Position numbers and translations under genes: made by a program. Shown here piece by piece: positions 29,796-52,598 of a stretch of DNA of 64,000 nt (position 1 is the stretch's first letter; each line of letters starts with the position of its first letter). Source of the stretch: Magnetospirillum sp. (lineage in GTDB: Bacteria > Pseudomonadota > Alphaproteobacteria > CACIAM-22H2); contig JAPZUA010000001.1 of the NCBI GenBank assembly GCA_027532905.1, positions 273,565 to 337,564 on the forward strand, in the 5' to 3' direction. A model generated the notes under the pieces. The model made no database searches. It had not been told where the DNA came from and was given only the letters and a program-made list of their open reading frames with translations.

Positions 29796-30688
29796 GATGC
29801 GGTCCTTACCTTCACGCCCGCCTTCTCTTCGCGCATCTTGACGAAGACGCCGACATCGTTGGCGCCGAAACCCTTGTCGAGCCCTTCTTGGCATGCCGCC
29901 AAAGTCGCGCGTCCGATCGGCGCGTCGAGCCCCATCGCGTCGATCATCTGCATTGCGATGCGGCAATCCTTGTGCGCCAAGCGCAGCATGAAGCCCGGCG
30001 CGAAATCGCCCTTCAGCGGGCGCAAAGGAAACGCCACGGCCAGCTGGCTGTTCCACGCCATCGTCTTTTGCATGACGCTGGTCATCGTCTCTAGCGTGAG
30101 GCCCGCCTTGATTCCGGCGGCCAGAATTTCGGCGTTCAAGGCGACCAGCGTTGTCGCCAGGAGATTGTTCGTCGCCTTCATCGCGTGCCCGTTGCCGAGC
30201 GCGCCGCACGCAAAGAAGTCCGTGCCCATGCAGTCGAGGATCGGGCGGGCGCGGGTCACCGCCTCCGGCGCTCCGCCCACCATCAAAGTCAGCGTGCCGG
30301 TCACGGCGTGGTCGGCCGTCTTGCCGACCGGACTGTCGACCATTGCGCAGCCTTTCGCCGCAAGGGCCGCACCGATCTTGCGCGTCGTCTCCGGGGCACT
30401 TGTGCTCATGTCGATCATCATGGAGCCGGGCTTGATGCCCGCCAAAATCCCATCCGGCCCGAGGGCGACGCGTTCAACATCCGGTGCGTCGGGCAGCATA
30501 GTGATCGTGAACGCACTCTCAGCAGCAAGTGCTGCAGGGGACGCGGCCGCGGCCGCCCCAAGTGCCACCAAACGCGCGACAGCAGACGCATCGATGTCGA
30601 AAACCCCGACGCGGTGCCCCTTCTTCAGCAGGTTCGCCGCCATAGGCGCCCCCATGATTCCAAGGCCGATGAAACCGACATTTGCCAT
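29792..30688 (-). CDS. 3-hydroxyisobutyrate dehydrogenase-like NAD(P) oxidoreductase
   Basis: Beta-hydroxyacid dehydrogenase of 298 residues. VGFIGLGIMGAPMAANLLKKGH is the N-terminal nucleotide-binding signature, MIDMSTSAPETTRKI and DSPVGKTADHAVTGTLTLM match the substrate motif, and the catalytic Lys is in GHAMKATNNLL. GGGAGG lies before the ATG. Sits between the two subunits of the UxaA-type lyase, implying it reduces or oxidises a small hydroxy acid or aldehyde in that pathway (tartronate-semialdehyde-like or sulfolactaldehyde-like enzymes belong to the same family). Confidence 0.9.
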   Translation of the reverse strand: MANVGFIGLGIMGAPMAANLLKKGHRVGVFDIDASAVARLVALGAAAAASPAALAAESAFTITMLPDAPDVERVALGPDGILAGIKPGSMMIDMSTSAPETTRKIGAALAAKGCAMVDSPVGKTADHAVTGTLTLMVGGAPEAVTRARPILDCMGTDFFACGALGNGHAMKATNNLLATTLVALNAEILAAGIKAGLTLETMTSVMQKTMAWNSQLAVAFPLRPLKGDFAPGFMLRLAHKDCRIAMQMIDAMGLDAPIGRATLAACQEGLDKGFGANDVGVFVKMREEKAGVKVRTAS

Positions 30689-30698: not shown

Positions 30699-31844
30699 CT
30701 ACATCGACGCGCCGACGCGCACGAATGCTTCCCCGCCCTCGCCGTGGATTTCGCCCCACGTCGCAGCGCCTGACGCAACCGCCAGAACCGTTTCGAACAA
30801 GCGCTCGCCGAGCGGTCCGATATCCTCGCGCCCGAGAAACGCAGCACTTGCATCGAAGTCGATCTGGTCGGGCAGCAACTTTGCCGTCTGCGGTCGACCG
30901 GTAATCTTCACAGTCGGTGCGATCGCACTGCAGAAACTGTTCCCCGCACCCGTCGTGAATAGCATCAGTTGCGCGCCCGACGCCGCAAAGCCCGTCAGCG
31001 ACTCGGGCGAAAAACTCGGCCCGTCCATCAGATGCAATCCCGGTACGCTCGGCCGCTCGGCCACTTGCAACAGACCGCGAATTGGCCGCGCGCCCGTCTT
31101 GGCAATGGCGCCAAGCGATTTCTCTTCGATCGACGACAAACCGCCACGAATGTTTTCGCTGCCTGGATTGTTGCCGGTAAGGCTTTGACCGCTTGCCGCG
31201 ACTTCGGCTTCGCGGCGAAGCACGGCGGCAACGATCGCCTCGGCGACCATTGGCGTCGCGGCGCGGCGCGCCAGAATATGCTCGGCGCCGAGCCATTCCA
31301 CCGTCTCGCCGACGACAGCCGTGCCGCCCGCATCGACAAGCCGATCGACACAACTGCCCGCAACGGGATTCGCGACGAGCCCCGATGTTGCGTCCGAGTG
31401 GCCGCATTCGACGCCCAAGAAGAGACGCGACGCAGGCTGGCGCGTGCGCTGAAGACGCGAGGCCGCATGCACCAGTTCGCCCGCAATGCGAATGCCCGCC
31501 GCACTCGCCGCAAGCGAATCTTCGTGGGTGTCGTCGAGGGCGACGATGCGCACCGGCTTGCCGCCCGATGCGGCCAAGGCCGCGATATCGTCGACTGCGC
31601 GACGGTCGGCGCCAACGATCAAGACTGCCGCGACATTGGGGTTGAGACACAGCCCTCCCAGTACGGCGCGATGCAGGGTTTTGTCGGCGCCATACTGCCC
31701 GCGCCCGTAGGGCGTTTCGACCAGCAATGTGCCTGCGACAGAATCCGCAATGCGCGCGGCAACGCGGTTGACGAGCCCCAGAATGGAGACAACTAGAACA
31801 TGGTTACGCACGCCCACACTGCCGTCGGCACGCAGATATCCCAT
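30699..31844 (-). CDS. UxaA-family lyase large subunit
   Basis: Large chain, 381 residues, equivalent to the C-terminal part of altronate dehydratase or to sulfolactate sulfo-lyase SuyB. GYLRADGSVGVRNHVLVV opens the domain; LFLGVECGHSDATSGLVANPV and TTGAGNSFCSAIAPTVKITG carry the Cys/Asp/His residues conserved for the metal site. I took ATG 31844; ATG 31883 would add 13 residues and neither has a clear ribosome site. First gene of a seven-gene operon running to 25363, divergent from the LacI regulator, with a LacI-type operator between them. Confidence 0.85.
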   Translation of the reverse strand: MGYLRADGSVGVRNHVLVVSILGLVNRVAARIADSVAGTLLVETPYGRGQYGADKTLHRAVLGGLCLNPNVAAVLIVGADRRAVDDIAALAASGGKPVRIVALDDTHEDSLAASAAGIRIAGELVHAASRLQRTRQPASRLFLGVECGHSDATSGLVANPVAGSCVDRLVDAGGTAVVGETVEWLGAEHILARRAATPMVAEAIVAAVLRREAEVAASGQSLTGNNPGSENIRGGLSSIEEKSLGAIAKTGARPIRGLLQVAERPSVPGLHLMDGPSFSPESLTGFAASGAQLMLFTTGAGNSFCSAIAPTVKITGRPQTAKLLPDQIDFDASAAFLGREDIGPLGERLFETVLAVASGAATWGEIHGEGGEAFVRVGASM

Positions 31845-31934
31845 GAATGTCGCCGACAGGCCGTCCGACAAAGCGCCCCCCATACCGGCCCGATGCGCAC
31901 TGCATCGCACCACAAGTTTCTTGATATTTCCTCA

Positions 31935-31994: not shown

Positions 31995-33023
31995 ATGGCC
32001 CGCAAACAAGCCGCCCGACCGTTCGTATTGCGCCCGCGCCTGGCGGACGTGGCGCGCGACGCGGGCGTTTCGACCATGACGGTCGTCCGCGTGCTGCGCG
32101 ACCCAGACAAGGTGGCCAAAACCACGCGCGAGCGCGTTGCGGCATCGCTCCACAAAACCAAGTACACGCCCGATCTTGTCGCGCGTGCCCTCGTTTCGCG
32201 CCGCTCCGGTATCGTGGGCGCAATAGTGCCGACCTTGGCAAATTCACTGATTGCCGAGGTGATGCAAGGCATGACGGCTGAACTCGGTTTGCACGAACAG
32301 CAACTGATCGTCGGTACTTCGACCTACTCGGCGCGACACGAGGAAGCTCTTGTGCGCAGCTTCCTGTCGCGTCGCGTCGATGCAATCTACTTGACGGGCA
32401 CCAGCCACACGCCCGAGACCGTAAAGCTTCTGAAGGCTGCGGGCGTGCCGGTCGTCGAAGGCGGCAATTTGCCGCAAACGCCCATCGACCTTGCCGTCGG
32501 CCTGTCGAACTTTGCGGCGGCCGGCAGCGTGGTCGAGTATTTGCTGGCGCGCTACGGAACAAATCTTGGCTTTTTGGGCGGCTCCACGACCAACAACGAC
32601 CGCATGCGCGACCGGCGCCACGGTTTCAAAAAATGCCTCGCGCGCGCGGGCGTGCGACCGGACCCGCGATACATGATCGAGGTGCCGATCTCGATGGCGG
32701 GCGGACGTACCGGCATCGGGGCCTTGCTGGCGTTGGATCGACCACCGCGCGCCGTTTTCTGCGCGACAGACGTGATCGCAGCCGGTGCCGTGCTGGAATG
32801 TCGGCGCCGCTCGATCGACGTGCCCGGCGATATCGCGATCGCCGGCTACGACGACCTCGATATTGCATCCGAGCTCGTTCCGTCGCTGACGACGGTGCGG
32901 TCGCCGCGCTACGAGATCGGGCGCAAGTCGGCGCAGCTGATGCATCTCTGCCTCACGGGCAATCGTCCGCAGCAAAGCATTTTCGACTTAGGCTTCGTGC
33001 TTATGCCGCGCGAAAGCGCCTGA
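31995..33023 (+). CDS. LacI family transcriptional regulator
   Basis: Regulator of 342 residues: helix-turn-helix and hinge in residues about 14-60 (LADVARDAGVSTMTVVRVLR, then YTPDLVARALVSRRS), followed by a periplasmic-binding-like core (VGAIVPTLANSLIAEVMQGM; VFCATDVIAAGAVLE; IAGYDDLDIASELVPSLTTV). GntR-like members of this family sense gluconate or other sugar acids. Likely represses the divergent lyase/importer operon and, through the matching operator, the lactonase promoters at 35.9 kb. Confidence 0.93.
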   Translation: MARKQAARPFVLRPRLADVARDAGVSTMTVVRVLRDPDKVAKTTRERVAASLHKTKYTPDLVARALVSRRSGIVGAIVPTLANSLIAEVMQGMTAELGLHEQQLIVGTSTYSARHEEALVRSFLSRRVDAIYLTGTSHTPETVKLLKAAGVPVVEGGNLPQTPIDLAVGLSNFAAAGSVVEYLLARYGTNLGFLGGSTTNNDRMRDRRHGFKKCLARAGVRPDPRYMIEVPISMAGGRTGIGALLALDRPPRAVFCATDVIAAGAVLECRRRSIDVPGDIAIAGYDDLDIASELVPSLTTVRSPRYEIGRKSAQLMHLCLTGNRPQQSIFDLGFVLMPRESA

Positions 33024-33039: not shown

Positions 33040-33789
33040 GTGACAAGAACGCTAGTCGTAACCGGTGCAAGCCGCGGCATCGGTGCCGCCACCGCCATCG
33101 CGGCCGCCAAACAAGGCTGGCAGGTCTGCATCCATTGCAACAGCCACGAAGAAGACGCGCTTGGCGTGCTGCGCGCCGTCGAAGCGACAGGCGGCAAAGG
33201 CATCGTCGTCAAGGCCGATGCGGCCGACGAAGGCGCACTTGGCGCCATGTTCGCGCGCTGCGATCGCGAACTCGCACCGCTCGGCGGGCTTGTCAACAAC
33301 GCGGGTTTCCTCGGCGGCGAAAGCGACATCGAGGCGTTCGACGCGAACGCCATGCGGCGCCTGTGGGACGTCAATGTCGTGGCGTATTTTGTTTGCGCGC
33401 GCGAGGCCGTGAAACGCATGTCGACCAAAAACGGCGGCCGAGGTGGGGCCATCGTCAACGTGTCGTCGATGTCGGCCGACAGCGGCGGCATTGGCCCGCG
33501 TATTCACTACGCCACCACCAACGGAGCGCGCCGCACGTTCACGTTCGGCCTTGCCAAGCAGTCGGGACCCAAGGGCATTCGTGTGAACGGCGTGATGCCC
33601 GGCGTTATCGACACAAATTTCAACGACAGCTTCGACAATGAAGGCCGCAACGCGCGCCTGCAGCCGTTGATCCCCGTCGGGCGCGTGGGCGTCGCCCCCG
33701 ACGTTGCGTCGACCATTGTTTGGCTGCTGTCGGACGACGCTGCCTATGTGAACGGCGCCGTCATCCCGGTCAATGGCGGGTTCTTCTAG
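33040..33789 (+). CDS. SDR family protein with altered catalytic lysine
   Basis: Short-chain dehydrogenase fold, 249 residues: TGASRGIG loop, NNAG, VNVSSMS with the catalytic Ser, and Tyr157. The normally invariant YxxxK reads YATTN, so residue 161 is Asn (codon AAC at 33520-33522; Lys would be AAA or AAG). The rest, including GIRVNGVMPGVIDT and VNGAVIPVNGG, is intact and the frame is open, so it is not an obvious pseudogene. GTG start after GGGAG, 16 bp behind lacI. It may be inactive, binding-only, or use an altered mechanism. Confidence 0.85.
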   Translation: MTRTLVVTGASRGIGAATAIAAAKQGWQVCIHCNSHEEDALGVLRAVEATGGKGIVVKADAADEGALGAMFARCDRELAPLGGLVNNAGFLGGESDIEAFDANAMRRLWDVNVVAYFVCAREAVKRMSTKNGGRGGAIVNVSSMSADSGGIGPRIHYATTNGARRTFTFGLAKQSGPKGIRVNGVMPGVIDTNFNDSFDNEGRNARLQPLIPVGRVGVAPDVASTIVWLLSDDAAYVNGAVIPVNGGFF

Positions 33790-33792: not shown

Positions 33793-34917
33793 CTAAGCCA
33801 ACGGCAGATCGAGCAACGCCGGATCCACGCCCAAGCCTGGCGCTTCGCCAAGGCATGCGACGCCGTCGTCGAGTTTCAGCCGATCGCCAACGATGCGTTC
33901 GCGCCACGGGTTGGGATTGGTATCGATCTCGAGCAAGCCGGTGCCCCCCGCAGCCGCCAGCAAATGCGCCGACGCCAACAATCCGATGCCGCCGCCCAAA
34001 TAGTGCGGACAATAGACTCGGCCAGCAGCCACCGCCTGGCGCGCGACGGCAAGGCAGCCCGACATGCCGCCCCATTTGGCGGCGTCGGGCTGGATGTAGG
34101 CAATCGCGCTGCTTGAGATTGCCGCATCAAACTCGGTATGCGAATTGAGATTCTCGCCCGCCGCGATCGGGATGCCCGTGCTTGCCGCAAGCTTGACCCA
34201 CTCCGCCATCGGCCGATCGGCCGCCATCGGCTCTTCGAGCCATGTGAGAGCGAATTCGTCGAGCGACGGCATGTGCACAGCGGCTTGCGCAAGGTTCCAG
34301 GCTTGGTTGGCGTCGGCCATCATCTGGCAATCGCGCCCAATTTGCTGACGCAGCCTTTTCAATCCGTCGCGGTCGACTGCATCGCCAAATCCGATTTTGA
34401 GCTTGAAGGCGCGATGGCCCGCCGCCAGTTCGCGCGGTGCGACGACATCGACATCTTCGCACGCGATGCCGCTTGCATAGACCGGAATACGGTCCGAGAC
34501 TCCGCCAAGGAACCGCCACAGCGGCAGGCCCGCCCGGCGCGCGGCCAGATCGTGGCATGCGATGTCGATCGCAGCGCAGACTTGGCGAAACGGACCGAAC
34601 TCGCCCGACTGCAGGACCATGATGTGGAAACGTTTCATCAGCCGCGCGAACAGACCGGCCAGCGGCTGCTCGCCTTGCATACACAGAACGGGGCCGACCA
34701 ATTCGTTGACCAGCCGCGCGCGATGCTCGGCCCCGACAGGCGGGAAGTTGCACCAAGCTTCGCCCCACCCGACATGGCCCGCACGGTCGCGCACACGCAC
34801 GAACACGGCCGGCCGATTGCGCATCTCGCCAAAGGAACTGCGCACCGGCACAGCGATAGGTGCGCGCAGCGCCCAAGCTTCGACTTTCGCAAGATCAATC
34901 GTGACTGCCGTTGGCAT
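33793..34917 (-). CDS. Mandelate racemase/muconate lactonizing enzyme family protein
   Basis: Enolase-superfamily protein of 374 residues with a full active-site set: K-x-K in FKLKIG, Mg ligands Asp in ADANQAW, Glu in LEEPM and Glu in AAGENL, and a His in CPHYLGGG. Probably an acid-sugar dehydratase. ATG at 34917 preceded by GGGGAGAG. It follows the amidohydrolase gene by 20 bp, so lactone hydrolysis and dehydration of the resulting acid would be encoded together, as in fucose/rhamnose/arabinose oxidative pathways. Converges tail-to-tail with the SDR, three bases apart. Confidence 0.88.
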   Translation of the reverse strand: MPTAVTIDLAKVEAWALRAPIAVPVRSSFGEMRNRPAVFVRVRDRAGHVGWGEAWCNFPPVGAEHRARLVNELVGPVLCMQGEQPLAGLFARLMKRFHIMVLQSGEFGPFRQVCAAIDIACHDLAARRAGLPLWRFLGGVSDRIPVYASGIACEDVDVVAPRELAAGHRAFKLKIGFGDAVDRDGLKRLRQQIGRDCQMMADANQAWNLAQAAVHMPSLDEFALTWLEEPMAADRPMAEWVKLAASTGIPIAAGENLNSHTEFDAAISSSAIAYIQPDAAKWGGMSGCLAVARQAVAAGRVYCPHYLGGGIGLLASAHLLAAAGGTGLLEIDTNPNPWRERIVGDRLKLDDGVACLGEAPGLGVDPALLDLPLA

Positions 34918-34937
34918 CGACGCTCTCCCCTGGCTTT

Positions 34938-35825
34938 CTAGAAACGATAGAGCCGACGGCACGTACGCCCGAAGAGATCGGCCGATTCGTCCGGGCTCAA
35001 AGTCGACAAAATTGCCTGCAACGTTTCGACTTGGCGCGCCATCGTGCACATCGACCGCTCAATCGGCAGGTTGCTGCCATAGAGACAGCGCGCGGGTCCG
35101 AACAGCTCGACCGCCGTTTCGACCCAGAGCGAAAGGGCAGCACGGTTCCAGGCCCGATCAATCGGCCACAGTCCCGAGATTTTGAGCGCGACGTTGGGCA
35201 AACGCGCCAACAAGCGCATGCCCGAGCGCCATTGCAGAAACCCATCGCGCGACACATCCAACGGCCAGCCGAGATGGTTGATGACAAAAGTCAGCTCCGG
35301 AACCGCCGCGCAAAGCTGTGCCGCTTCTTCCATCTGGCTTGGAAAGAGACTGAGTTCGAACAGCCAACCGCGGGCGGCGATGCGCCGCAACCCATCGGCA
35401 AATTCCGCGCGCGACAAAATCGCCGGATCGTCGATCACAGAGCGACCATGCTGCAAATCGAAATTGACGCGCAGCCGCACGCCGCGCACAGGTCCCGCCG
35501 CTTCATGCGCCGCAAGCTCGGCATCGAGATCGGGCGAGCGCGGATCGACCCGAACGACCAGCACGAACGGGCGACCCATTGCAGGCGCTTGAGCGGCGAG
35601 CCAACGCGTTTCGTCGAGCGCGGTGTTGGGCGCGCACTCGGCCTGCACATGCACGCTGGCCAAAAGATCGAGGCCGTGCGCGTCGGCTGCGTAGTCGGCG
35701 GGCAAATAGGGACCCGCAATCGGCGCTTTGTCGCCGAACGGCGGATTGGGTGCCGCCGGCGCAAGCCACGGATAGGCAAGCATCCGCGGATCCCATAAAT
35801 GATGATGCGCATCGACGATCTGCAT
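34938..35825 (-). CDS. Amidohydrolase family protein, L-fuconolactonase-like
   Basis: Metal-dependent TIM-barrel hydrolase of 295 residues. IVDAHHHLWDP is the N-terminal His-x-His metal motif of the COG3618 branch (lactonases for fucono-, rhamnono- and similar lactones, and pyrone dicarboxylate lactonase); FVINHLGWPL and YGSNLPIE supply later ligands. Start at ATG 35825. Likely opens a sugar-acid lactone made by the dehydrogenases. Divergent from the SMP-30 lactonase, 110 bp apart, with a LacI-type operator between. Confidence 0.87.
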   Translation of the reverse strand: MQIVDAHHHLWDPRMLAYPWLAPAAPNPPFGDKAPIAGPYLPADYAADAHGLDLLASVHVQAECAPNTALDETRWLAAQAPAMGRPFVLVVRVDPRSPDLDAELAAHEAAGPVRGVRLRVNFDLQHGRSVIDDPAILSRAEFADGLRRIAARGWLFELSLFPSQMEEAAQLCAAVPELTFVINHLGWPLDVSRDGFLQWRSGMRLLARLPNVALKISGLWPIDRAWNRAALSLWVETAVELFGPARCLYGSNLPIERSMCTMARQVETLQAILSTLSPDESADLFGRTCRRLYRF

Positions 35826-35883
35826 GCCTGCCTTGATTCGCGAGCAGCCCGTTGCTTGACGTAGGATACCGATTATGTGCCAT

Positions 35884-35900
35884 ATGTTAGCGAATAACAT
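35884..35900. promoter_or_regulatory. Candidate LacI-family operator
   Basis: ATGTTAGCGAATAACAT, with perfect 6-bp arms ATGTTA/TAACAT, in the divergent promoter region of the amidohydrolase and SMP-30 genes. Shares ATGTTAGCG with the site at 31935 beside the lacI gene. Supports assigning the downstream SMP-30 start to 35935, since an earlier start would put the site inside the gene. Confidence 0.6.
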
Positions 35901-35934
35901 CAAGATTTCGAGGATATTCAAAGGGCTGCACGCC

Positions 35935-36828
35935 ATGGCGCACGCGACGATCGTCAGTGCCGAAGTTTTTGGGCTTCACCATGCCCATGCCATGACCGGC
36001 GAAGCGCCTTGCTGGGATGCACGGACCGGAGTTTTGTGGTGGATCGATATTCAAGGCCAGCGTCTGCTTGGCCATATGCCGGAAAGCGGTGTCAATCTGG
36101 AGTACGCGCTGCCGAGCATGCCAGGGCTCGTCGTGTGCCGTCGTCAGGGCGGACTGGTACTGGGCCTTGAAGACGGGCTCTATCCGTTCGCGCTGCAAGA
36201 CGGGCTCGGGACGCGCCTTGTCGCGATTGAGGCCGACGATCCCCGGACGCGCATCAACGACGGCAAACCAGATCCCCGAGGGCGCCTATGGTTCGGCACG
36301 ATGGACAAGACCGGGGCCGGAACGCCGATCGGCGCGCTCTATCGTCTCGACCTCGACGGCACCCTCGAGAAGATCCGCACCGACATTCGCATTCCCAATG
36401 CGATCGATTTTTCGCCCGATGGATCGCATTTTTATTTCTGCGACACACAGACGCATCTTATCGAGCGATTCGCGTATACCCCCGCAACCGGGACGCTGGG
36501 CCCGGCCACGGTTTTCGCAGCCTATCCCGACACGATCTCGCCCGATGGAATCTGCGTCGATCGCGACGGCGGCGTGTGGATCGCCCTTGTCGATGCGGCA
36601 CGCCTCGAAAGACGCTTGCCCGACGGCACGCTCGATACCGTCGTCGAACTTCCTGTGTCGCGCCCGACCATGCCGATGCTCGGCGGGAGCGACGGACGCA
36701 CCCTTTTCGTCGTCTCGCAGCGTCGTTTTTTGCCGGCACCGCAATTGGCACGCCAACCGCTGGCGGGCGATTTGCTGGCCTTGCGCGTCCGCATACCGGC
36801 CAAGGAAGCGTGCTTCGCATCCATCTAA
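35935..36828 (+). CDS. SMP-30/gluconolactonase family protein
   Basis: Six-bladed propeller lactonase of 297 residues, cytoplasmic. Divalent-metal ligands: Glu in TGEAPCWD, Asn/Asp in RINDGKPDPRGRLWFGTM, Asn in IPNAIDFSPDG and Asp in SPDGICVDRDGG. These match gluconolactonase, xylonolactonase and arabinolactonase. Starts a plus-strand operon with an SDR and an unrecognised protein. With the divergent amidohydrolase there are two unrelated lactonases under one promoter region, which may handle gamma- versus delta-lactones or two sugars. Confidence 0.9.
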   Translation: MAHATIVSAEVFGLHHAHAMTGEAPCWDARTGVLWWIDIQGQRLLGHMPESGVNLEYALPSMPGLVVCRRQGGLVLGLEDGLYPFALQDGLGTRLVAIEADDPRTRINDGKPDPRGRLWFGTMDKTGAGTPIGALYRLDLDGTLEKIRTDIRIPNAIDFSPDGSHFYFCDTQTHLIERFAYTPATGTLGPATVFAAYPDTISPDGICVDRDGGVWIALVDAARLERRLPDGTLDTVVELPVSRPTMPMLGGSDGRTLFVVSQRRFLPAPQLARQPLAGDLLALRVRIPAKEACFASI

Positions 36829-36849: not shown

Positions 36850-37641
36850 ATGTCGGATATTTTTTCGATGCGCGGGCGTACAGCCCTTGTCACAGGCGGC
36901 AGCGTGTCGATCGGTCGCGCGATAGCACTCGGTTTTGCCGCGCACGGCGCATCGGTTGCCGTCCAATCTGCAGCGAAGGCCGATGCAGTCTTCGGCTTGC
37001 CCGATGCCGCGCGCGATACGGCCGTCGATATCGCCAAACTCGGCGTCGCAGGGCATGCGATCGACGCCGATTTCGCGGAACCGGATGGCCCGCGCCGCAC
37101 CTTCGACGCTGCAATTGCAGCACTTGGTCGCGTCGATGTGCTGGTACTGTGCGCGTCGATCCAGACGCGCGTGGCCTTCGACGACATCACGCCGGCCCAG
37201 TTGGCGCTCGAGATGCGCATCAACCTGGAAGCGTCGATCGAGTTGCTGCAACTCGCCGTGCCGCCGATGCGCGAACGCCGCTGGGGCCGCGTGCTGACGA
37301 TCGGCAGCATCAACCAGGTGCGGCCCGAGCCGCAGCTTGCGACCTACGCGGCACTCAAAAGCGCCCAATGCAATATTGCAATGAACCTCGCCAAGCAGTC
37401 CGCGTGCGACAATGTCATGATCAACAATCTGTCGCCCGGGATTGTGGCGACCGAGCGAAATCGGTGGCGACGCAAAGATGCCGCCGAATGGCAAGCCATC
37501 CAGCAGAAAGCTGCCGGTACCGTCGGCCGCGCGGCGCAGCCGTCGGAAATGGTCGGGGCTGCACTTCTGCTGTGCTCGGATGCCGGCAGCTACATCGCGG
37601 GCGTCGATCTTATGGTAACGGCCGGCGCGCATCTTCCCTGA
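36850..37641 (+). CDS. SDR family oxidoreductase
   Basis: Short-chain dehydrogenase of 263 residues. The catalytic YAALK and GSIN are intact. The nucleotide loop reads TGGSVSIG, with Ser where the second glycine of TGxxxGxG is expected, a possible change in cofactor affinity. AAGGAG before ATG 36850. Ends GVDLMVTAGAHLP. Lies 21 bp behind the SMP-30 lactonase, so it probably oxidises the sugar that yields the lactone or a downstream keto-deoxy acid. Confidence 0.88.
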   Translation: MSDIFSMRGRTALVTGGSVSIGRAIALGFAAHGASVAVQSAAKADAVFGLPDAARDTAVDIAKLGVAGHAIDADFAEPDGPRRTFDAAIAALGRVDVLVLCASIQTRVAFDDITPAQLALEMRINLEASIELLQLAVPPMRERRWGRVLTIGSINQVRPEPQLATYAALKSAQCNIAMNLAKQSACDNVMINNLSPGIVATERNRWRRKDAAEWQAIQQKAAGTVGRAAQPSEMVGAALLLCSDAGSYIAGVDLMVTAGAHLP

Positions 37642-37701: not shown

Positions 37702-39087
37702 ATGAAGCGCGACCTTGGAATCATCGTGTTTCCCGAATTCTTCCAGACCGAGGGCGTCGCGCAAGTGCTCGACAATCTCCAACAGCGCACCGGTCTCGCT
37801 GCGATCGCAACGTCGCCCTATGTGATGCGGCCAACACTTGACGGCGACGGCGGACGCGAACCGCCGATCGACGGTGGTGCGGGATCGGTTCGCCTGCTCG
37901 ATCGACCCTTGTGGGGTCGGCGCGAATTGTTCGTACGAACATCCGTCGCCTACGAACCCAACCGCGCGTTTTATGAAGGACTGCGCTATCAGCCGCCGGC
38001 ACCCGACAGCCATACGTCGGCGGACGGCGCCCTGGTCGGCAAAGCCTTGGCGCAGGCGCGCCAACGCGGTTTGCGCACCTATTTGCAGATCCAAGCGGCG
38101 ATTCCTCCAGGCTACCGCGTGCAGTTTGGCGGCCCCGATCCGGACGACGAGCCGCGCCATGTCGATGGCCGCATCGTTGGGGACCGGCTCGACAAAAACG
38201 GCTCCCTGGCGAGCCCCCATATCCGCGACTACACGGTGGCACTGCTGAAAGATCTGGCGCACGCCTATCCCGACATCGACGGGTTTCATATCGATTGGCC
38301 GGAATATCCCCCCTACACGCTCGACAGTGCATTTTTGGATTTCGGCACCCACGCCCAGGCGGCGGCAGCGCGAATGGGGCTCGATTTTGACGCAATGGTC
38401 GCCGACGCGACGCGCTGCCACGCTTGGCTCACGCAACGTCTGACGCTAGACGAACTCGCGCGCGGCATGACTGCCGTCGCCGACTATCCGGGCGTTGTCG
38501 CCATGTGTGGCTTGAAGGCCCGTCTGGCTGCCGAATGCGCGGCCGCTTGGCGCACGGCGGTTCCCGATAAACAAATCGTGTTGCGAAGTTTTCCGCCGCC
38601 TTGGACGGCGATCTCTGGATTCTCCTTCGAAGCAATGGCGCCGTTTGCCGACGCCATATCGGTTAAACTTTTCACGATGCATTGGCCGATGATGGTGGGA
38701 TCGTGGACCGCGCGTCTGCTGCGCGACAACCCGGCGCTCGGCTCCGCAAAAAGCGTTGCTCCGCTTGTCGCAAAAATTTTCGATGTCGCGGACACGCCCG
38801 AGGAATTTGGCGATGCCATCGGCCAGTATCCGGATCCGGAGGCGCCGCATCCGGTCGGTGCGGCGGCCATGGCGCGCAAAATCGAAGCGGCGCGGCGCCG
38901 GAGCGCGCCGACTTCCGTCTACGCGATGGCGCACGGCTACGGTCCCGTCGACGATTTTCGCGCGCGGCTGTCGACTGCCTGGGCTTCCTCGGCCCACAAA
39001 GTGTGGATCAATCGGTACGGGTATCTTTCCGACGAAAAACTCGACGCGATTGGGCTGGTTTGTCGGCCGCCGATGCTGCCGACTTGA
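37702..39087 (+). CDS. Unrecognised protein, possible TIM-barrel glycoside-hydrolase-like
   Basis: Protein of 461 residues without signal peptide or membrane segments; I do not recognise the family. Visible: RGLRTYLQIQAAIPPG, then PDIDGFHIDWPEYPPYT and IVLRSFPPPWTAISGF, spaced like strands of a barrel with acidic catalytic residues, and HKVWINRYGYLSDEKLDAIG at the end, resembling the closing strand of glycosidase-like barrels. It is the last gene of the lactonase/SDR operon and the last of island 1. A role in splitting a glycoside imported intact is possible but unproven. Confidence 0.55.
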   Translation: MKRDLGIIVFPEFFQTEGVAQVLDNLQQRTGLAAIATSPYVMRPTLDGDGGREPPIDGGAGSVRLLDRPLWGRRELFVRTSVAYEPNRAFYEGLRYQPPAPDSHTSADGALVGKALAQARQRGLRTYLQIQAAIPPGYRVQFGGPDPDDEPRHVDGRIVGDRLDKNGSLASPHIRDYTVALLKDLAHAYPDIDGFHIDWPEYPPYTLDSAFLDFGTHAQAAAARMGLDFDAMVADATRCHAWLTQRLTLDELARGMTAVADYPGVVAMCGLKARLAAECAAAWRTAVPDKQIVLRSFPPPWTAISGFSFEAMAPFADAISVKLFTMHWPMMVGSWTARLLRDNPALGSAKSVAPLVAKIFDVADTPEEFGDAIGQYPDPEAPHPVGAAAMARKIEAARRRSAPTSVYAMAHGYGPVDDFRARLSTAWASSAHKVWINRYGYLSDEKLDAIGLVCRPPMLPT

Positions 39088-39293: not shown

Positions 39294-39338
39294 TGGTCGG
39301 AGCGAGAGGATTCGAACCTCCGGCCCCTAGCTCCCGAA
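39294..39338 (-). repeat. Attachment-site-like copy 2 of the tRNA-Pro 3' end
   Basis: Identical over 45 bases to 58688-58732, the 3' half of tRNA-Pro including the CCA end and T arm. The similarity ends in the anticodon loop. Same orientation as the other two copies. It forms the junction between islands 1 and 2. Confidence 0.88.
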
Positions 39339-39734: not shown

Positions 39735-41672
39735 ATGGCGAATTCAAACGATGATCCCGAAATGCACGGCATCGAACGGCCGATGGGTCGCGTCTTCGCC
39801 GATATTGCGGCTGAACGCCTGTCGCGCCGCACTGTGCTTGCCGGTGCCGCTTCGATAGCTGTCGGCGCAGCCATGCCCGCCGAAGCGCAGACGCGGCGGA
39901 ACGCCTTGCGCTTTGCCGATGCGACGAGCGATCTCGACGGGAACGACCATGTGTCGCCCGGCTACAAGCGCCAAGTCGTGGTGCGCTGGGGCGACCCGCT
40001 CTTCGTCGACGCGCCCGAATTCGATCCAACCACCCAGACCGGCGCCAAACAGGAGCGCCAGTTCGGCTACAACAACGACTTTATGTGGTTCTTTCCCCTA
40101 CCCTACGGCTCACGCAGTTCGACGCGCGGCCTGCTGCATGCGAACCACGAATACTGCAACGGCAATCTGATGTTCCCGGGCATCGGCGAGCGTGGCAACC
40201 AGACCAAAGCACAGTGCGACGTCGAGATGGCGGCACACGGACTAAGCACGGTCGAAATCGCCAAGATCGACGGGGCTTGGCGCGTGGTCAAAGACAGCCG
40301 ATACAATCGCCGCCTCAGTGCGGCGGGTTCGGCGTTCCGTGTTTCGGGTCCGGCCGCTGGCCATCCGCGGCTGCGCTCGAACGAGGACCGCACGGGCACG
40401 CTCGTCGTGGGCACCCTGAACAACTGCGCGGGCGGCGTCACGCCGTGGGGAACGGTTCTGTCGGGCGAGGAGAACTTCAACGGTTATTTCGGCGGCGACG
40501 CGTCCAAGACGCCGGAAGCAGCCAACCATCGCCGCTACGGCGTTTCGCCGTGGCAAGGGGCACCCTGGGCCAATTACTTCGAACGCTTCCAGGTCGAGAC
40601 GAATTGGAACGAACCCAATCGCTTCGGCTGGGTCGTCGAATACGATCCCTACGATCCGCAGTCGACGCCGGTCAAACGCACGGCATTGGGGCGCTTCAAG
40701 CACGAAGGTGCGACTTGCGTCGTGTGTCCCGACGGGCGCGTCGCGGTCTATTCGGGCGACGACGAGCGGTTCGAGTATGTCTACCGCTTCGTCACGCGCG
40801 GCACCTACGATCCCAAGAACCGGCGCGCCAACCGCGACCTGCTCGACGACGGCACGCTGTCGGTCGCGCAGTTCCAAGCCGACGGCACGCTGCGCTGGCT
40901 GCCGCTGGTGCACGGCCAAGGACCGCTGACGGCCGCCAACGGTTTTGCGAGCCAAGCCGACGTGCTGATCGAAGCGCGCCGTGCCGCCGATCTCGTCGGT
41001 GCCACGCCGATGGATCGGCCCGAAGACGTCGAAACCGATCCCGTCACGGGGCGCACCTACGTGGTGTGCACCTACAACGAACGCCGTGCAGCGGCCGACG
41101 CCAGCGATGCGCGCGCACGCGCGAACGGCCCGAACCCGCGCGCCGACAACCGCACGGGCCACATCGTCGAGATGATTCCGCCGGGCGGCCGCGGGCCGCG
41201 CGCCGACCATGCGGCCGATGTGTTTCGCTGGGACATTCTGCTGCTTGCGGGCGACCCCGCCGATCCGGCCGCGCGCGCCAAATACGGGCCGGGCGTGGGT
41301 CCGCACGGATGGCTCGCAGCGCCCGACAACATCGCCTTCGACCCGAAAGGGCGCATGTGGATCGCGACCGACGGCATGCCGACCCAAGCCGTGCCCGCCC
41401 GCTCGGACGGCATCTTCGGCACCGAACTCGAAGGGCCCGGCCGCGCCGTGACCAAACGCCTCTACGGCGCGCCGTCGGGGGCAGAGGTTTGCGGGCCCTG
41501 CTTCACGCCCGACGGCAAGACGCTGTTTCTGGCGATCCAACATCCGGGCGAAGCGCGCGGTTCGAACTTCGAAAATCCATCGACGCGATGGCCCGATTTC
41601 CGCCCCGACATGCCGCCGCGTCCGTCGGTCGTCGCGATCGAGAAAATCGACGGCGGCGAAATCGGCAGCTAG
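39735..41672 (+). CDS. phoX: PhoX family alkaline phosphatase
   Basis: Secreted phosphatase of 645 residues (DUF839/PhoX). A Tat signal RLSRRTVLAGAASIAVGAA is preceded by a 28-residue N-terminal stretch, as in other PhoX proteins. Family motifs: LLHANHEYCNGNLMFPG, NNCAGGVTPWGTVLSGEENFNGYF, RFKHEGA and RPEDVETDPVTGRTYV. PhoX binds iron and calcium and releases phosphate from organic esters in the periplasm under phosphate starvation. Strong GGGAGGGG before ATG 39735 and PHO-box-like repeats upstream. A 19-bp-arm hairpin ends the gene. Confidence 0.93.
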   Translation: MANSNDDPEMHGIERPMGRVFADIAAERLSRRTVLAGAASIAVGAAMPAEAQTRRNALRFADATSDLDGNDHVSPGYKRQVVVRWGDPLFVDAPEFDPTTQTGAKQERQFGYNNDFMWFFPLPYGSRSSTRGLLHANHEYCNGNLMFPGIGERGNQTKAQCDVEMAAHGLSTVEIAKIDGAWRVVKDSRYNRRLSAAGSAFRVSGPAAGHPRLRSNEDRTGTLVVGTLNNCAGGVTPWGTVLSGEENFNGYFGGDASKTPEAANHRRYGVSPWQGAPWANYFERFQVETNWNEPNRFGWVVEYDPYDPQSTPVKRTALGRFKHEGATCVVCPDGRVAVYSGDDERFEYVYRFVTRGTYDPKNRRANRDLLDDGTLSVAQFQADGTLRWLPLVHGQGPLTAANGFASQADVLIEARRAADLVGATPMDRPEDVETDPVTGRTYVVCTYNERRAAADASDARARANGPNPRADNRTGHIVEMIPPGGRGPRADHAADVFRWDILLLAGDPADPAARAKYGPGVGPHGWLAAPDNIAFDPKGRMWIATDGMPTQAVPARSDGIFGTELEGPGRAVTKRLYGAPSGAEVCGPCFTPDGKTLFLAIQHPGEARGSNFENPSTRWPDFRPDMPPRPSVVAIEKIDGGEIGS

Positions 41673-41686
41673 GCGGAAAGCTTCCA

Positions 41687-41733
41687 GTCGGCGGCCATTC
41701 GTCGCGGCTACGTGGCGACAAATGGCCGCCGAC
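41687..41733. terminator. Bidirectional terminator between phoX and the convergent ABC operon
   Basis: Inverted repeat with 19-bp arms, GTCGGCGGCCATTCGTCGC against GCGACAAATGGCCGCCGAC, one mismatch, 9-base loop. It sits between two converging transcription units, with no long T-run on either side. Confidence 0.75.
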
Positions 41734-41767
41734 AGAACTTGACGAGTGCATGCATACACCCTGCCGC

Positions 41768-42862
41768 TTAAGCGGTCAGGAACTGCATGCGCTCCGGCGC
41801 CAACGAGACGGCGACCAAAGCGCCAACCTCGATCAGACCCGACACACTTTGGAAGGGTGCTTCGACCGTCACTTCGCTGCGGCCCAGGGCCACATTGTAA
41901 CGGACCGCGGCGCCCAGAAACTCGCGATGGACCACCTTGCCCGTCAGCGCATTATCGGCACCGTCGTCCTTTGCGCGCACCAGTTCGGCATATTGCGGAC
42001 GAAAGACCAGCCGTGCAGCGTGAGTCGCAGTCACGCTCGGCGGGATCGGCAATCTGGCGCCGCCTTTGATCTCGAACATGCGATCTGCACCGTCGGTCAA
42101 CACCTCGCCCTCGAGAATATTGGCAGCCCCCAAAAAGCCGGCGACAAACAAGTTTGCTGGCTTTTCGTAGAGTTCCATTGGCGTACCGACTTGCTGTACA
42201 ATACCGTCATTCATTACGGCGATACGATCGCAGATCGTGTTGGCCTCTTCCTGGTCGTGGGTTACGAAGATTGTCGTGAGCCCCAAACGCTGCTGCAGAT
42301 CGCGAAGCTCGCGGCGCACCTGCACGCGCATCTTGGCGTCCAGGTTCGACAATGGCTCGTCGAGCAGCAACACCTTGGGTTCGACGACCACGGTCCGCGC
42401 CACGGCCACACGCTGCTGCTGCCCACCCGAGAGTTGCGAAGGCCGACGTTCGGCAAGATGGCCAAGGCCGACGAGGTCGAGTGCTGCTGCCACGCGCCGA
42501 GCGATTTCGGCCTTCGGCAACCTGCGTTCTTCGAGTCCAAAGGCAACGTTCTTTGCCACCGTCATATGCGGCCATAGCGCATAAGATTGGAAGACCATCC
42601 CGACATCGCGCTTCCACGGCGGCAGCGCCGAAATGTCGCTGTCGCCGATCATCACGCGGCCCGACTGGGCGACGTTGAATCCGGCGATGAGCCGCAACAA
42701 TGTCGTTTTGCCGCAGCCGGACGGCCCAAGAAAAGCGAAGAACTCGCCCGGCTTCACTTCAAGATTGATGTTCTTGAGAACATGCGTGGCGCCGTAGGAG
42801 AGGTTCACCTCCTCGACCAAAACGCCTGAGGCATTGGCTCGGGCTGGTGCTTCGACAAACAT
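41768..42862 (-). CDS. ABC transporter ATP-binding protein (AfuC/PotA type)
   Basis: ATPase of 364 residues. Walker A GPSGCGKTT, signature LSGGQQQR, Walker B LLLDEPLSNLD and switch His in VTHDQEEA. After residue 240 a TOBE-like regulatory domain follows, as in Fe3+, polyamine, phosphonate and hexose-phosphate importers. It energises the two-domain permease just upstream (gap of 9 bp). Last gene of the operon. Confidence 0.92.
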   Translation of the reverse strand: MFVEAPARANASGVLVEEVNLSYGATHVLKNINLEVKPGEFFAFLGPSGCGKTTLLRLIAGFNVAQSGRVMIGDSDISALPPWKRDVGMVFQSYALWPHMTVAKNVAFGLEERRLPKAEIARRVAAALDLVGLGHLAERRPSQLSGGQQQRVAVARTVVVEPKVLLLDEPLSNLDAKMRVQVRRELRDLQQRLGLTTIFVTHDQEEANTICDRIAVMNDGIVQQVGTPMELYEKPANLFVAGFLGAANILEGEVLTDGADRMFEIKGGARLPIPPSVTATHAARLVFRPQYAELVRAKDDGADNALTGKVVHREFLGAAVRYNVALGRSEVTVEAPFQSVSGLIEVGALVAVSLAPERMQFLTA

Positions 42863-42871
42863 GACGATGCC

Positions 42872-44584
42872 TCAATGTTTGACTGCACCCGACCGTTCAC
42901 GGTCAAGCAGCCAGTGGGAGAGAAAAGTACACAAACCGACGATGATGACCGCGATCATGCCAAGGGCAGCGCCCGGGCCGCGGCCCGCAGGGGATTGCAT
43001 GTAGACGTAAAGCCCATAGGCCAACGGCGCATCGGAAGTGTTCTGCACCAGCATCATCGTGGCCGAAAGCTCGACCGAGGCAGTGGCAAAGGCAGTGACG
43101 AAGCCCGCGAGCATGCCGCCGACCATCAGCGGCAGCAAGATCCGGCGCACCGTACGCGCCTTTGTTGCCCCAAGATTCTCGGCCGCCTCTTCGAGTTGCG
43201 GCGAAACCTGCTGCAAGCCGGCTGTACAGGCGCGCAAAGCGTAGGGAAGCCGCCGAACCGCCAGCGCGACGACGATGATGACCCAGAACGTCGCAAGCGA
43301 CTGGCCGGACGGCAACGTCACGCCGTAATAGGTGCGCAGGTAGCCGATGCCGATCACCACGCCAGGCACGGCAAGCGCACCCATCGCCAGATAGTCGAGC
43401 ATCTGTCGGCCCGGAATCTTCGTGCGCTGCACAAGCCATGCAATCGCCGATCCAACAATGACGGCGATGATTCCCGCCAATGTCGAATAGATAAGCGTGT
43501 TCCAGATAAACTGCGGGCTCTCGGTCAGGACTTTGCCGTAGTGCGCAAGCGTGTAGTCGTCGGGCAACGGCGCAAAAGACCAGACCGTGGCGAACGAGAG
43601 CAAGATCAGCCCAATATGGGGTGCGAGCGTCAAAGCGAGGATCAGAAACACGACGCCATAGGCCGCGACCTTGTCGATCCCCTTCATCTCGCGCTTGGCA
43701 AGACCGCCGCCGCCACGCTGGACGGTGGCGTAGTCGCGCCCGCGCGTCGCAAAGGTAGCGATCCACATAGCGATCATCGACACCGAAATAAGCACGACTG
43801 AAATGACGTAGCCCATCGGATCGTTCAATCCGATCGAAGTGATGCGCAGATAGGCTTGCGGTGCAAGCAGGTCCTTGGCGTTGAGCAGCAGCGGCGTGGC
43901 AAGGTCGTCGAAAACCTTAATGAAGACGAGGCTGGCTCCCGCCACGTAGCCCGGCATGGCGAGAGGGAAAACGACTTTGGCGAAGAGCCGGAAGCCCGAC
44001 GCGCCAAGATTCTGTGCACTTTCCTCCATCGCTCGGTCGATATTGGCAAGTGATGCCGAGACGTTGAGCAAGATGAACGGAAAGTAATGAACGGCCTGCA
44101 ACAGAATGACGCCGTTCAAACCCTCCATGAACGGAATGTTGATGTCGAACCAGTCGCCGAGCAGCAGATTGAAGGTGCCATTCCGCCCGAACAGCAGTTG
44201 CATGGCAACCGCACCGGCAAAGGGCGGCATGATGAGCGGCACGACACCCAGCGTCTGGATTAATACTGCGCCCCGAAACTGGAAGCGCGAGGTGATATAG
44301 GCCAGCGGAAGCGCAAACACCGTGCCCCAAAGAACCGACATCGTCGAAACATAGACCGAGTTCCAGAGCGAGCGGACGAACAGATCGTTGCGCAGGAAAT
44401 CGGCAAAGTTTACGAGCGTGAAACCGCCTGTGCGCGGATCAACGAAGGCGACGACCACGACAGTTGCGACTGGAACTACCAGAAACAGAAGAAGAAATGC
44501 CGCCACTGCCCCGGCCAGCAGATACTGACCGAGTGGAATCGATTGCCTGCGCGATGCGGCAGCGGCGGCGGCAGTTGCGCTCAA
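42872..44584 (-). CDS. ABC transporter permease, fused two-domain (AfuB/PhnU-V like)
   Basis: Inner-membrane protein of 570 residues with about twelve membrane segments, two binding-protein-dependent permease domains in one chain. Two EAA loops are visible: EESAQNLGASGFRLFAKVVFP and EEAAENLGATKARTVRRILLP. This architecture is typical of iron, 2-aminoethylphosphonate and sugar-phosphate importers. The start is TTG at 44584, overlapping the binding-protein stop (TTGA), so translation is coupled. Confidence 0.9.
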   Translation of the reverse strand: MSATAAAAAASRRQSIPLGQYLLAGAVAAFLLLFLVVPVATVVVVAFVDPRTGGFTLVNFADFLRNDLFVRSLWNSVYVSTMSVLWGTVFALPLAYITSRFQFRGAVLIQTLGVVPLIMPPFAGAVAMQLLFGRNGTFNLLLGDWFDINIPFMEGLNGVILLQAVHYFPFILLNVSASLANIDRAMEESAQNLGASGFRLFAKVVFPLAMPGYVAGASLVFIKVFDDLATPLLLNAKDLLAPQAYLRITSIGLNDPMGYVISVVLISVSMIAMWIATFATRGRDYATVQRGGGGLAKREMKGIDKVAAYGVVFLILALTLAPHIGLILLSFATVWSFAPLPDDYTLAHYGKVLTESPQFIWNTLIYSTLAGIIAVIVGSAIAWLVQRTKIPGRQMLDYLAMGALAVPGVVIGIGYLRTYYGVTLPSGQSLATFWVIIVVALAVRRLPYALRACTAGLQQVSPQLEEAAENLGATKARTVRRILLPLMVGGMLAGFVTAFATASVELSATMMLVQNTSDAPLAYGLYVYMQSPAGRGPGAALGMIAVIIVGLCTFLSHWLLDRERSGAVKH

Positions 44585-45933
44585 GGTGCGAGCCGCGCCG
44601 CCTCGGCGGTCTTGGCCATCGCGGCGGCATACTTCTCCTTAGCGAAGCTCGACCATTGCTGCTCGAGCTCGGCTTGACGCGGGGCTTTGGCCTGCGGCGT
44701 GCTTGCTTGAAAGGATGCGCGGATCTCTTCCGACACAGCTTGCTCTGCCGTAATGGGCATGGCTGAGATCAGGGCGCGTGCCTCGGCGAGTCGAGCCCGC
44801 GCGGCCGGATTGTCGCGGCGCGCAAGACGCGCTTCAACGTCGTGGATCGCCTTGGTCACGGCTTTCAAAGGCTCGAGATTGAAGGTGATCAATTGATCGA
44901 ACAACACGTCGACAACCGCGTAGCGGCGCTCGGAAACGCCGACATCGAATTCGAATCCTGGCAGCCCGATGGCGCCGGTGAACGGATTGGGATAGCCCTC
45001 CGGCGCCTTGGCATAGGTCGCCGGATTCACAGGCAAGCGGCTGATCGCCGGGGTAAGCAGAAGTTCTTGACCTGCGTCCGACAGAAGAAAATCGACGAAG
45101 GCGCGCGCTGCAGCCTGATTGGGCGCATTGGCGATGATGCCGACATTGGCTGGCACAACGGTCGAGACGGTCGGGTAGACGAACCTGACAGGGAAGTTTG
45201 CGGCGCGTGCCGAAAAGGCAAAAAAGTCGATGACGACGCCCAGTCCGACCTGTCCTGAGTTGACGGCATCGGGCACGCCAAAGGAGCGATCGGTGATCGC
45301 GCGCATGTTTCCCGACATTGCCTTCAGTGTCGCCCAGCCTTTTTCCCAGCCTTCGCCCTGCAATATCGTCTCCACCGTCAGATGGGTGGTTCCCGAGCGC
45401 GACGGCGTGGTGATCATGGCGTGATCGAAATAGACGGCTTTGCCAAGATCGGACCATTCCTTGGGATCTGGCAGACGGTTGGCGCGGGTATAGCGCTCGT
45501 TCCACATGATGCCGTAGCCCGACGCGGCAAAACCGAAAAACATGCCGTCGGGATCGTTGATGTTGTAGGGACCGAGCTTTGCCGGGATGCCCGGCGCATT
45601 CGGCTTGTGGGCCTGGAGAAGCCCCGCGCGCTTGAGGACCTCGAACGCATCGGGTGCCGACGCCCAGAAAAGATCGACTTGGTTATTGGCGCGTGTTTCC
45701 TGGACGAAACGCACGCCCGCATTCGTATTGCGGTTCTGCACCTCAAGCGTGACGCCCGGCACGGCCGTTTCAAAGGCCTTTTTGAAAGGGTCCGTTACGT
45801 CCTTCGAAAAGGAAGTCACCACGGTTACCTTGCCGCTCGGGGCTTGCGCCTGGGCGTTGCCGAGGGAAAAACCGAGTGCCAGCACAGCGGCGGTCGCAGC
45901 GGTCACAAAGATTGCAAAGCGTCGGTTCGACAT
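44581..45933 (-). CDS. ABC transporter substrate-binding protein (AfuA/PhnS-like)
   Basis: Periplasmic binding protein of 450 residues. Signal peptide MSNRRFAIFVTAATAAVLALG ending around AQAQA; body opens VTVVTSFSKDVTDPFKKAF and contains RANNQVDLFWASAPDAF and SGYGIMWNERY, typical of family 1 iron/phosphonate-type receptors. A C-terminal helical extension rich in Ala, Arg and Glu (from about residue 370) is longer than usual. It follows the Na/Pi cotransporter in the same direction by 110 bp, so both may be read from one Pho-controlled promoter. Ligand most likely an organophosphorus compound by context. Confidence 0.85.
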   Translation of the reverse strand: MSNRRFAIFVTAATAAVLALGFSLGNAQAQAPSGKVTVVTSFSKDVTDPFKKAFETAVPGVTLEVQNRNTNAGVRFVQETRANNQVDLFWASAPDAFEVLKRAGLLQAHKPNAPGIPAKLGPYNINDPDGMFFGFAASGYGIMWNERYTRANRLPDPKEWSDLGKAVYFDHAMITTPSRSGTTHLTVETILQGEGWEKGWATLKAMSGNMRAITDRSFGVPDAVNSGQVGLGVVIDFFAFSARAANFPVRFVYPTVSTVVPANVGIIANAPNQAAARAFVDFLLSDAGQELLLTPAISRLPVNPATYAKAPEGYPNPFTGAIGLPGFEFDVGVSERRYAVVDVLFDQLITFNLEPLKAVTKAIHDVEARLARRDNPAARARLAEARALISAMPITAEQAVSEEIRASFQASTPQAKAPRQAELEQQWSSFAKEKYAAAMAKTAEAARLAP

Positions 45934-46043
45934 GGGGGGCTTTCCTCTTTGGTTTCGACTTCTTGCAGCCATCGACGGCTGCCAAGTCATTTCAGAAAAA
46001 GATACAGTCAGCTTGGATGCAGCGAAAGAGCCATGAGATGCAG

Positions 46044-47699: not shown

Positions 47700-47757
47700 T
47701 TTTTCGTTTAACTCCGAAGTTGCTTTGTCGAATTGCCAAGCGGCGGCGCTTGTCAGG

Positions 47758-47786: not shown

Positions 47787-47835
47787 ATAAGCGGCGCTAG
47801 GCCGAAAGAGCAGTGATTTGAGGGAGAAGAAAACC

Positions 47836-51318: not shown

Positions 51319-51349
51319 GGCTAACGCGATATTCAAAGAACAGTTTCCC

Positions 51350-52569: not shown

Positions 52570-52598
52570 GTCCGACGCGATCTGAACGCCGATTTCAT

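Follow-up and report, generated by a model that had tools for sequence, protein, structure and literature searches.

The window analysed here is a 64,000-nucleotide stretch of the genome of Magnetospirillum sp. (assembly GCA_027532905.1), and the gene under study, designated P0001, is an open reading frame of 461 residues whose coordinates agree exactly with those of an earlier first-pass annotation made from the sequence. The genes and features of the window on which the argument depends are as follows, in order of position.

114 to 142, reverse strand: boundary repeat, 3′ end of tRNA-Pro, 29 bp identical.
6258 to 7787, reverse strand: third sulfatase-family gene (CQPSRASILTG), no signal peptide seen.
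7792 to 9267, reverse strand: second sulfatase-family gene (CVPARASLHTG, a CxPAR variant), no signal peptide seen.
17779 to 18963, reverse strand: L-rhamnonate dehydratase (777 bits, equivalog cut-off 393).
19741 to 20883, forward strand: enolase-superfamily dehydratase-like gene, overlapping the start of the next gene by 4 bp.
20880 to 22352, forward strand: sulfatase-family (S1-type) gene, the product of which has no visible signal peptide and opens with the core itself; the most conserved partner of P0001.
22412 to 23374, forward strand: TctC-type solute receptor (TctC, 4e-28).
23386 to 23892, forward strand: TctB.
23889 to 25373, forward strand: TctA (4.6e-134).
29493 to 29795, reverse strand: partner resembling a small subunit, with a match to the N-terminal end of galactarate dehydratase.
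30699 to 31883, reverse strand: UxaA/galactarate-dehydratase-type large subunit (scanned as 30699-31913).
31995 to 33023, forward strand: LacI-family regulator, GntR-like (NCBIfam).
33040 to 33789, forward strand: SDR dehydrogenase (NCBIfam).
33793 to 34917, reverse strand: enolase-superfamily sugar-acid dehydratase-like gene (scanned as 33793-35049).
34938 to 35936, reverse strand: amidohydrolase-type lactonase, resembling L-fucono-1,5-lactonase (111 bits, cut-off 400).
35935 to 36828, forward strand: SMP-30/gluconolactonase-type lactonase (SGL, 3.6e-70; scanned as 35875-36828, the start being that of a home-made gene caller).
36850 to 37641, forward strand: SDR dehydrogenase (adh_short), 60 bp upstream of P0001.
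37702 to 39087, forward strand: P0001, 461 residues, ATG to TGA, a glycosidase-like TIM-barrel protein without a library family.
38281 to 38325, forward strand: b4 motif GFHIDWPEYPPYTLD (residues 194-208 of P0001), a putative catalytic acid site, with a strand at 194-198 in the model.
39294 to 39338, reverse strand: direct repeat, 3′ end of tRNA-Pro, 45 bp identical, beginning after a 206-bp gap from the P0001 stop; island boundary.

The tRNA-Pro(CGG) gene lies at 58688-58764, and its final 25 bases recur as exact copies in the same orientation at 114-138 and 39294-39318 (0 in 100 shuffles), and a further copy of this 3′-end repeat lies upstream at C1:231863. The 39-kb segment that the repeats bound (114-39318) holds the sulfatase-family gene, TctCBA, the L-rhamnonate dehydratase and two lactonases, with P0001 as its last gene. 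Therefore, the catabolic cluster occupies a single repeat-bounded segment within a tandem array, and the word "island", which had been applied to these surroundings of P0001, is justified. In genome G002, too, the repeat is present 40 bp behind the stop codon of the P0001 homologue. Phage-type integrases gave 11 matches in the source genome, 10 of them over the cut-off; the stretch of contig 1 that the outermost repeats enclose has none, and the GC content is alike between segments (0.625, 0.617 and 0.619). The next repeat-bounded segment (39735-58134) looks like a phosphorus/phosphonate island, with genes for a PhoX phosphatase, a Na/Pi cotransporter, a phosphonate-binding protein, a HAD hydrolase and ABC transporter parts. 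Within the same island as P0001, positions 4141-6261 encode a 706-residue protein with a partial Pfam match to DUF3604 (64 residues).

Breakdown of sulfoquinovose was considered as a role for the island genes and rejected: the reductase at 29792-30688 matched sulfolactaldehyde 3-reductase best, but with 252 bits against a cut-off of 348, and the only NCBIfam match of the UxaA-type large protein was galactarate dehydratase.

Twelve homologues, one of which is truncated at a contig end, align with P0001 at 51 to 94% identity, and comparison with the two closest copies gave dN/dS values of 0.031/0.48 and 0.055/0.55; for two more distant copies in this test the silent sites were near saturation. 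Therefore, P0001 is not a chance open reading frame but a gene on which purifying selection is strong. In the AlphaFold2 model described below, the first barrel strand occupies residues 4-9, right at the start of the sequence. This leaves no space for a signal peptide, the absence of which had been proposed from the sequence, and P0001 is probably cytoplasmic.

The earlier statement that no family could be recognised holds in Pfam, NCBIfam, PHROGs and the PDB sequences. It was found that P0001 had a single match in Pfam at E≤10 (TAF1C, E 0.17), none in NCBIfam at E≤1, and a single match in PHROGs (E 0.23); the best E value against PDB sequences was 0.42, among matches to flavivirus envelope proteins at E 0.4 to 2.3, and the family profile had no match to PDB sequences at E≤10. 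The TAF1C, PHROG and envelope protein matches were all taken as chance. A search of phage and plasmid collections with P0001 gave zero matches. A profile match to a characterised family, which the first-pass annotation had named as evidence against an undescribed enzyme, was thus not obtained in the libraries searched. Among the papers listed in searches of the open-licence literature, no title or abstract opening names a family of this type, and nothing was found that joins a sulfatase, rhamnose, a TTT transporter and alphaproteobacteria.

Homologues of P0001 were present in 14 of 61 genomes searched, the source genome (G000) included, although three of them are cut by contig ends (G001, G012 and G021, the match in G021 being 26 residues). 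All 14 belong to the 23 genomes of the source's own family, and the 38 other genomes had none. In the species-level genome collection, matches were found at 10 loci, and a profile search of 398 genomes drawn from the phylum found, besides the source genome, only a distant protein in G238. One close family member lies outside the taxonomic family of the source, in G662. The P0001 family proper is narrow. A second, truncated copy of the C terminus, 94% identical, was seen at a contig start in G002 (G002:C34:3-317; L010/L025).

Structure prediction and a fold search had been suggested as a check on the proposal that P0001 has a glycosidase-type barrel. An AlphaFold2 model built from 9 sequences is a TIM barrel (pLDDT 83.4, pTM 0.87), in which we read the eight strands of the alpha/beta barrel at residues 4-9, 34-37, 125-131, 194-198, 291-296, 318-322, 405-411 and 433-437, with two further short strands (40-45 and 77-82) within an insert. 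Foldseek placed GH156, GH42, Cwp19 and GH66 proteins among the top rows (best E 1.3e-7), with low TM-scores (0.2-0.5 by query) and rmsd mostly of 7-12 Å; the rows also include two pyruvate phosphate dikinases, a phage N4 tail chain and a non-catalytic beta-amylase. VIA-align, which only re-ranks the chains supplied by Foldseek, placed the PgaB glycosidase domain at the top (Z 25.3, rmsd 3.5 Å, 314 residues aligned, 9% identity) and then Cwp19 (Z 22.8, rmsd 3.4, 291 aligned), both against the predicted model, and GH42 enzymes and the alpha-L-fucosidase 6tvk, which we take to be of family GH151, reached Z values of about 21. Most of the best 50 rows of the two programs are glycoside hydrolases or relatives. 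Stretches 54-64 and 135-142 of P0001 are among the most conserved, yet have the lowest model confidence, so that the model does not fix the active site.

These results support a glycosidase-type TIM barrel as the fold of P0001, nearest to glycoside hydrolases, and the non-enzymatic fold that had been named beforehand as an outcome against an enzyme was not obtained. The description of P0001 as an undescribed enzyme is therefore upheld as far as fold and family are concerned. The glycosidase resemblance of a TIM barrel alone does not prove that P0001 hydrolyses glycosides.

The best structural match is GH153, the C-terminal domain of PgaB, a poly-beta-1,6-glucosamine hydrolase, and the probable catalytic residue of PgaB is given as D474 (PMC5933820). 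In our reading, D474 lies at the end of b4 like D198 of P0001; this mapping follows strand position, because comparison by hhalign of the P0001 family profile with a single E. coli PgaB sequence found no relation (30 columns, E 0.44, probability 0.1%). Unlike P0001, PgaB is periplasmic, carries a deacetylase domain and is part of polymer export. The GHL10 protein Cwp19 of Clostridioides difficile, described as an S-layer protein (PMC5765458), shares the TIM-barrel fold (the Z of 22.8 extends over 291 residues), whereas P0001 is a single-domain protein that lacks a signal peptide, and P0001 has no match at E≤10 to Pfam GHL10 (PF02638), the cut-off of which is 27.9 bits. The barrel is also shared with GH18 chitinases, several of which are among the VIA-align rows, and the b4 sequence of P0001 (DGxxxDW-EYP) resembles the GH18 motif at b4, DxxDxDxE. 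However, residues 193-202 of P0001 are DGFHIDWPEY, in which the middle Asp is missing and the Glu is preceded by an additional residue (WPE), and there is no Pfam match to GH18. Enzymes of clan GH-A have a catalytic Glu at the ends of both b4 and b7; GH42, other barrels of the clan GH-A type and 6tvk have a fold like that of P0001, but P0001 has no Pfam match to them, and it has E201 near b4 and lacks a Glu where b7 ends.

The distant protein of G238, designated P0007, provides a bridge to a named family. P0007 matched Pfam GHL10 at E 1.5e-4 with 21.5 bits, below the cut-off of 27.9, and GHL6 at E 0.07, and its relative in the source genome matched GHL10 more weakly still (16.8 bits). With P0007 as the query, five of 385 genomes of the class were matched: relatives of 64% identity were found in the source genome (C2:646434-647837) and in G002, one of 27% in G620, and the P0001 family member of G662 was reached at E 1.7e-6 (L048, the same place as L007), whereas the match in G647, 63 residues in an open reading frame of methyltransferase-type appearance, was taken as chance. 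The P0007-type family (A3) and the P0001 family each find the other in genome searches, and their alignments matched in hhalign at E 8.9e-15 with a probability of 98.4% over 425 columns, although A3 members have 18-20% identity to P0001. By this profile comparison the two families share ancestry. Through the A3 bridge, P0001 belongs to a wide and mostly uncharacterised set of GHL-like barrels, although not to GHL10 by score. A3 itself (L046, which is the source-genome locus, L045 and L034) is a second undescribed barrel family of alphaproteobacteria, which adjoins an aminotransferase gene and, in G238, also an amidohydrolase gene.

Two motifs had been singled out in the sequence as hints of a glycosidase-type barrel, GFHIDWPEYPP (residues 194-204) and RYGYLSD (residues 438-444), and both are located at strand ends of the predicted barrel, b4 and b8, in our own numbering of the strands of the AlphaFold2 model. 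The sequence DWPEYPPY at the end of strand 4 is common to all 13 aligned sequences (P0001 and the 12 homologues), as are D57, D198 and E201. D57, in the largely invariant stretch 50-86, is invariant too in the joint alignment of the P0001 and A3 families. Near b4, the A3 family keeps a Glu close by (CNER in P0007, EFEG in L047), and the position of D198, as counted from the DG/EG of strand 4, is C in P0007 and E in L047, the MAFFT alignment of the two families being gapped in this region. Strand b7 (405-411) is followed by GYGPVDDF, which has no Glu but contains D417 and D418. On the basis of the invariance of DWPEYPPY, the Glu of A3 and D474 of PgaB, we propose E201 as the general acid of P0001 with D198 assisting, and D57 is a candidate for the second carboxylate.

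The gene neighbourhood was compared in 17 distinct homologue-bearing genomes, namely the 14 of 61 (G000 included) and L004, L005 and L007. Duplicates were merged (L001 with G002, L002 with G004, L003 with G008, L006 with G009, L007 with G662, L008 with G012 and L009 with G001, L010 being the second fragment in G002), and the homologues cut by contig ends (G001, G012 and G021) were counted among the 17. Gene order in the relatives was obtained with a home-made gene caller and BLAST against the window proteins, over stretches of about 20 kb at most and shorter at contig ends; the L033 homologue, where the gene calls contained a spurious overlapping open reading frame, was placed by its genome-search coordinates.

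It was found that a sulfatase-family gene lies within 4 kb of the P0001 homologue in 11 of the 17 genomes (G001, G005, G007, G008, G009, G013, G021, G022, L004, L005 and L007) and adjoins it in six (G007, G013, G021, L004, L005 and L007), with an overlap of 4 bp in L004 and G007. The distance is 7 kb in G016 and 15 kb in the window, and in G002, G012 and G017 the sulfatase orthologue and the P0001 homologue are on different contigs. Genome G004 has a homologue of 90% identity and no match to the window sulfatase (20880-22352) at E≤0.001, and in G008 the place is taken by a sulfatase-family gene of another subfamily (arylsulfatase, 370 bits in NCBIfam against a cut-off of 481, with a CxPAR signature). 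Among the 61 genomes, 12 have both P0001 and the sulfatase orthologue, two have P0001 only (G004 and G008), one has the sulfatase only (G019) and 46 have neither, where an orthologue is a match of at least 60% identity, a line placed once the list was known, in the gap between matches of 61% or more and those of 38% or less. The corresponding Fisher values, which ignore shared ancestry, are 6.5e-10 for the 61 genomes and 7.3e-4 for the 23 genomes of the family. Tct genes, with orthology assigned by BLAST to the window Tct proteins, were present on the examined stretch in 11 of the 17 genomes. One 14.6-kb run (5702-20327) of Tagaea sp. CACIAM 22H2 (L006) is made up of the sulfatase, the P0001 homologue, TctCBA, lactonases, SDRs, a regulator and a UxaA-type gene. 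In L035 (14341-18067), genes for an NMT1-type ABC importer (Pfam) follow the sulfatase, possibly as a second uptake route, and similarly sized genes follow the sulfatase in L028, L032 and L033.

P0001 had been described as ending a lactonase operon, and genes for an SMP-30 lactonase and an SDR do precede it on its strand; however, an orthologue of that lactonase (35935-36828) is on the examined stretch in only three of the 17 genomes (G000, G005 and G009). In the co-occurrence check that had been suggested, lactonase and SDR genes therefore did not turn out to be conserved partners, whereas sulfatase-family and Tct genes did. The context of P0001 is thus probably sulfated-sugar catabolism rather than a lactonase operon, and because its relatives are often found near a sulfatase-like gene and a small-acid transporter, we read P0001 as an enzyme of sulfated sugars.

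The explanation that we favour, with a probability of about 0.5, is that P0001 is the first member to be noticed of a family of cytoplasmic glycoside-hydrolase-like TIM barrels, which is so far undescribed and has no name in the libraries searched, and that it acts in a module that breaks down a small sulfated glycoside. In this explanation, TctABC would import a small anionic sulfated glycoside, the sulfatase would strip the sulfate from it, and P0001 would cleave the glycosidic bond after desulfation, with acid catalysis from the end of b4 (E201, with D198) and possibly D57 of stretch 50-86 as the second carboxylate. The dehydrogenases, lactonases and sugar-acid dehydratases would then oxidise, delactonise and dehydrate the freed sugar or sugars by a non-phosphorylative route, which in the source genome would include the L-rhamnonate dehydratase. 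The gene, its predicted fold, its family, the conserved neighbourhood and the ends of the island are what the analysis shows; the hydrolase activity, the neighbour as an active sulfatase, the order of the steps, the substrate and the residues are what we infer within this explanation. A pathway of this type is plausible in view of SAR202 bacteria, for which non-phosphorylative use of rhamnose and fucose, many enolase-superfamily enzymes and sulfatases in the genome have been described (PMC10444878).

The alternative that survives best, although we consider it improbable, is that P0001 acts in the same pathway not as a hydrolase but as a glycoside lyase, an isomerase or another sugar-modifying TIM-barrel enzyme. 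In favour of such a role, P0001 does not clearly show the catalytic carboxylates that mark known GH clans, and its neighbours are sugar-acid enzymes, but most of its best-row structural neighbours are glycoside hydrolases, and the A3 bridge leads to GHL10.

The favoured explanation also takes the neighbouring gene to encode an active sulfatase. The gene at 20880-22352 matched PF00884 with 146.4 bits against a cut-off of 25, and its product contains CVPSRMSMLTG, in agreement with the S1 sulfatase signature, C-x-P-S-R-x(3)-L-T-G. Sulfatases of this type need a formylglycine that is made from the signature Cys by a maturase. No sulfatase maturase was recognised in the source genome, the assembly of which is 95.7% complete: the anaerobic sulfatase-maturase model TIGR03942 had no match, and the only match to PF03781, considered as a formylglycine-generating enzyme, was rejected because it is the ergothioneine enzyme EgtB (529 bits, cut-off 360). 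Either the maturase is in the missing part of the assembly, or maturation takes another route, or the neighbour is inactive as a sulfatase, and the result lowers our confidence in the sulfated-glycoside explanation. The gene could accordingly be a phosphodiester- or phosphonate-type ester hydrolase, or have an unmodified Cys, in a module that degrades other ester-bearing glycosides. Enzymes of the sulfatase superfamily are promiscuous, and the PehA model, a phosphoric/sulfuric ester hydrolase, does match, at 158 bits and far under its cut-off of 900. We nevertheless hold this to be unlikely, since choline-sulfatase is the best model for the gene and five relatives (279-301 bits, below the cut-off of 433), and all 12 neighbour sulfatases checked in relatives retain the signature Cys, as do all three sulfatase-family genes of the window.

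It is similarly doubtful that P0001 is specifically an alpha-L-rhamnosidase, which would free L-rhamnose from a desulfated uronate-rhamnose disaccharide of ulvan-like or cyanobacterial origin. The L-rhamnonate dehydratase, two lactonases and SDRs are in the same island, neither the GH78 catalytic domain nor GH106 had a match in the source genome, and transporters of the Tct type are associated with carboxylates. However, the L-rhamnonate dehydratase scored over its cut-off only in the source window and was below it in five enolase-superfamily proteins of four other loci, so that rhamnose may not be the shared sugar, and no uronate- or ulvan-specific enzyme was found among the island genes scanned. 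That P0001 is a non-catalytic barrel that binds sugars as a sensor or scaffold is very improbable, for although some GH-like barrels only bind, and the chitinase-like agglutinin 4uri is among the VIA-align rows, the polar stretches of P0001 are highly invariant and its position recurs in a catabolic module.

We return to the reading of P0001 as a glycoside-hydrolase-like enzyme for a sulfated glycoside. In a more specific and tentative form of it, P0001 may represent a new GH family with unusual catalysis, in which a WPE acid at b4 and a second carboxylate from the long and largely invariant b2-b3 stretch would cleave sulfated or just-desulfated glycosides inside the cell. TctABC, sulfatase and P0001 would then be a portable route for the uptake of intact small sulfated sugars by alphaproteobacteria, and the sulfatase of this route would be matured by neither of the maturases searched for.

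The sulfated sugars of algae and cyanobacteria are a large carbon pool that is slowly used, and in the route usually described, secreted sulfatases and hydrolases act first, outside the cell. If the favoured explanation is true, the module would represent another strategy for the use of sulfated sugars, being compact and intracellular, with a transporter of its own and a barrel enzyme that is so far undescribed, and a function would be given to a protein family that the searched annotation libraries leave without a name.
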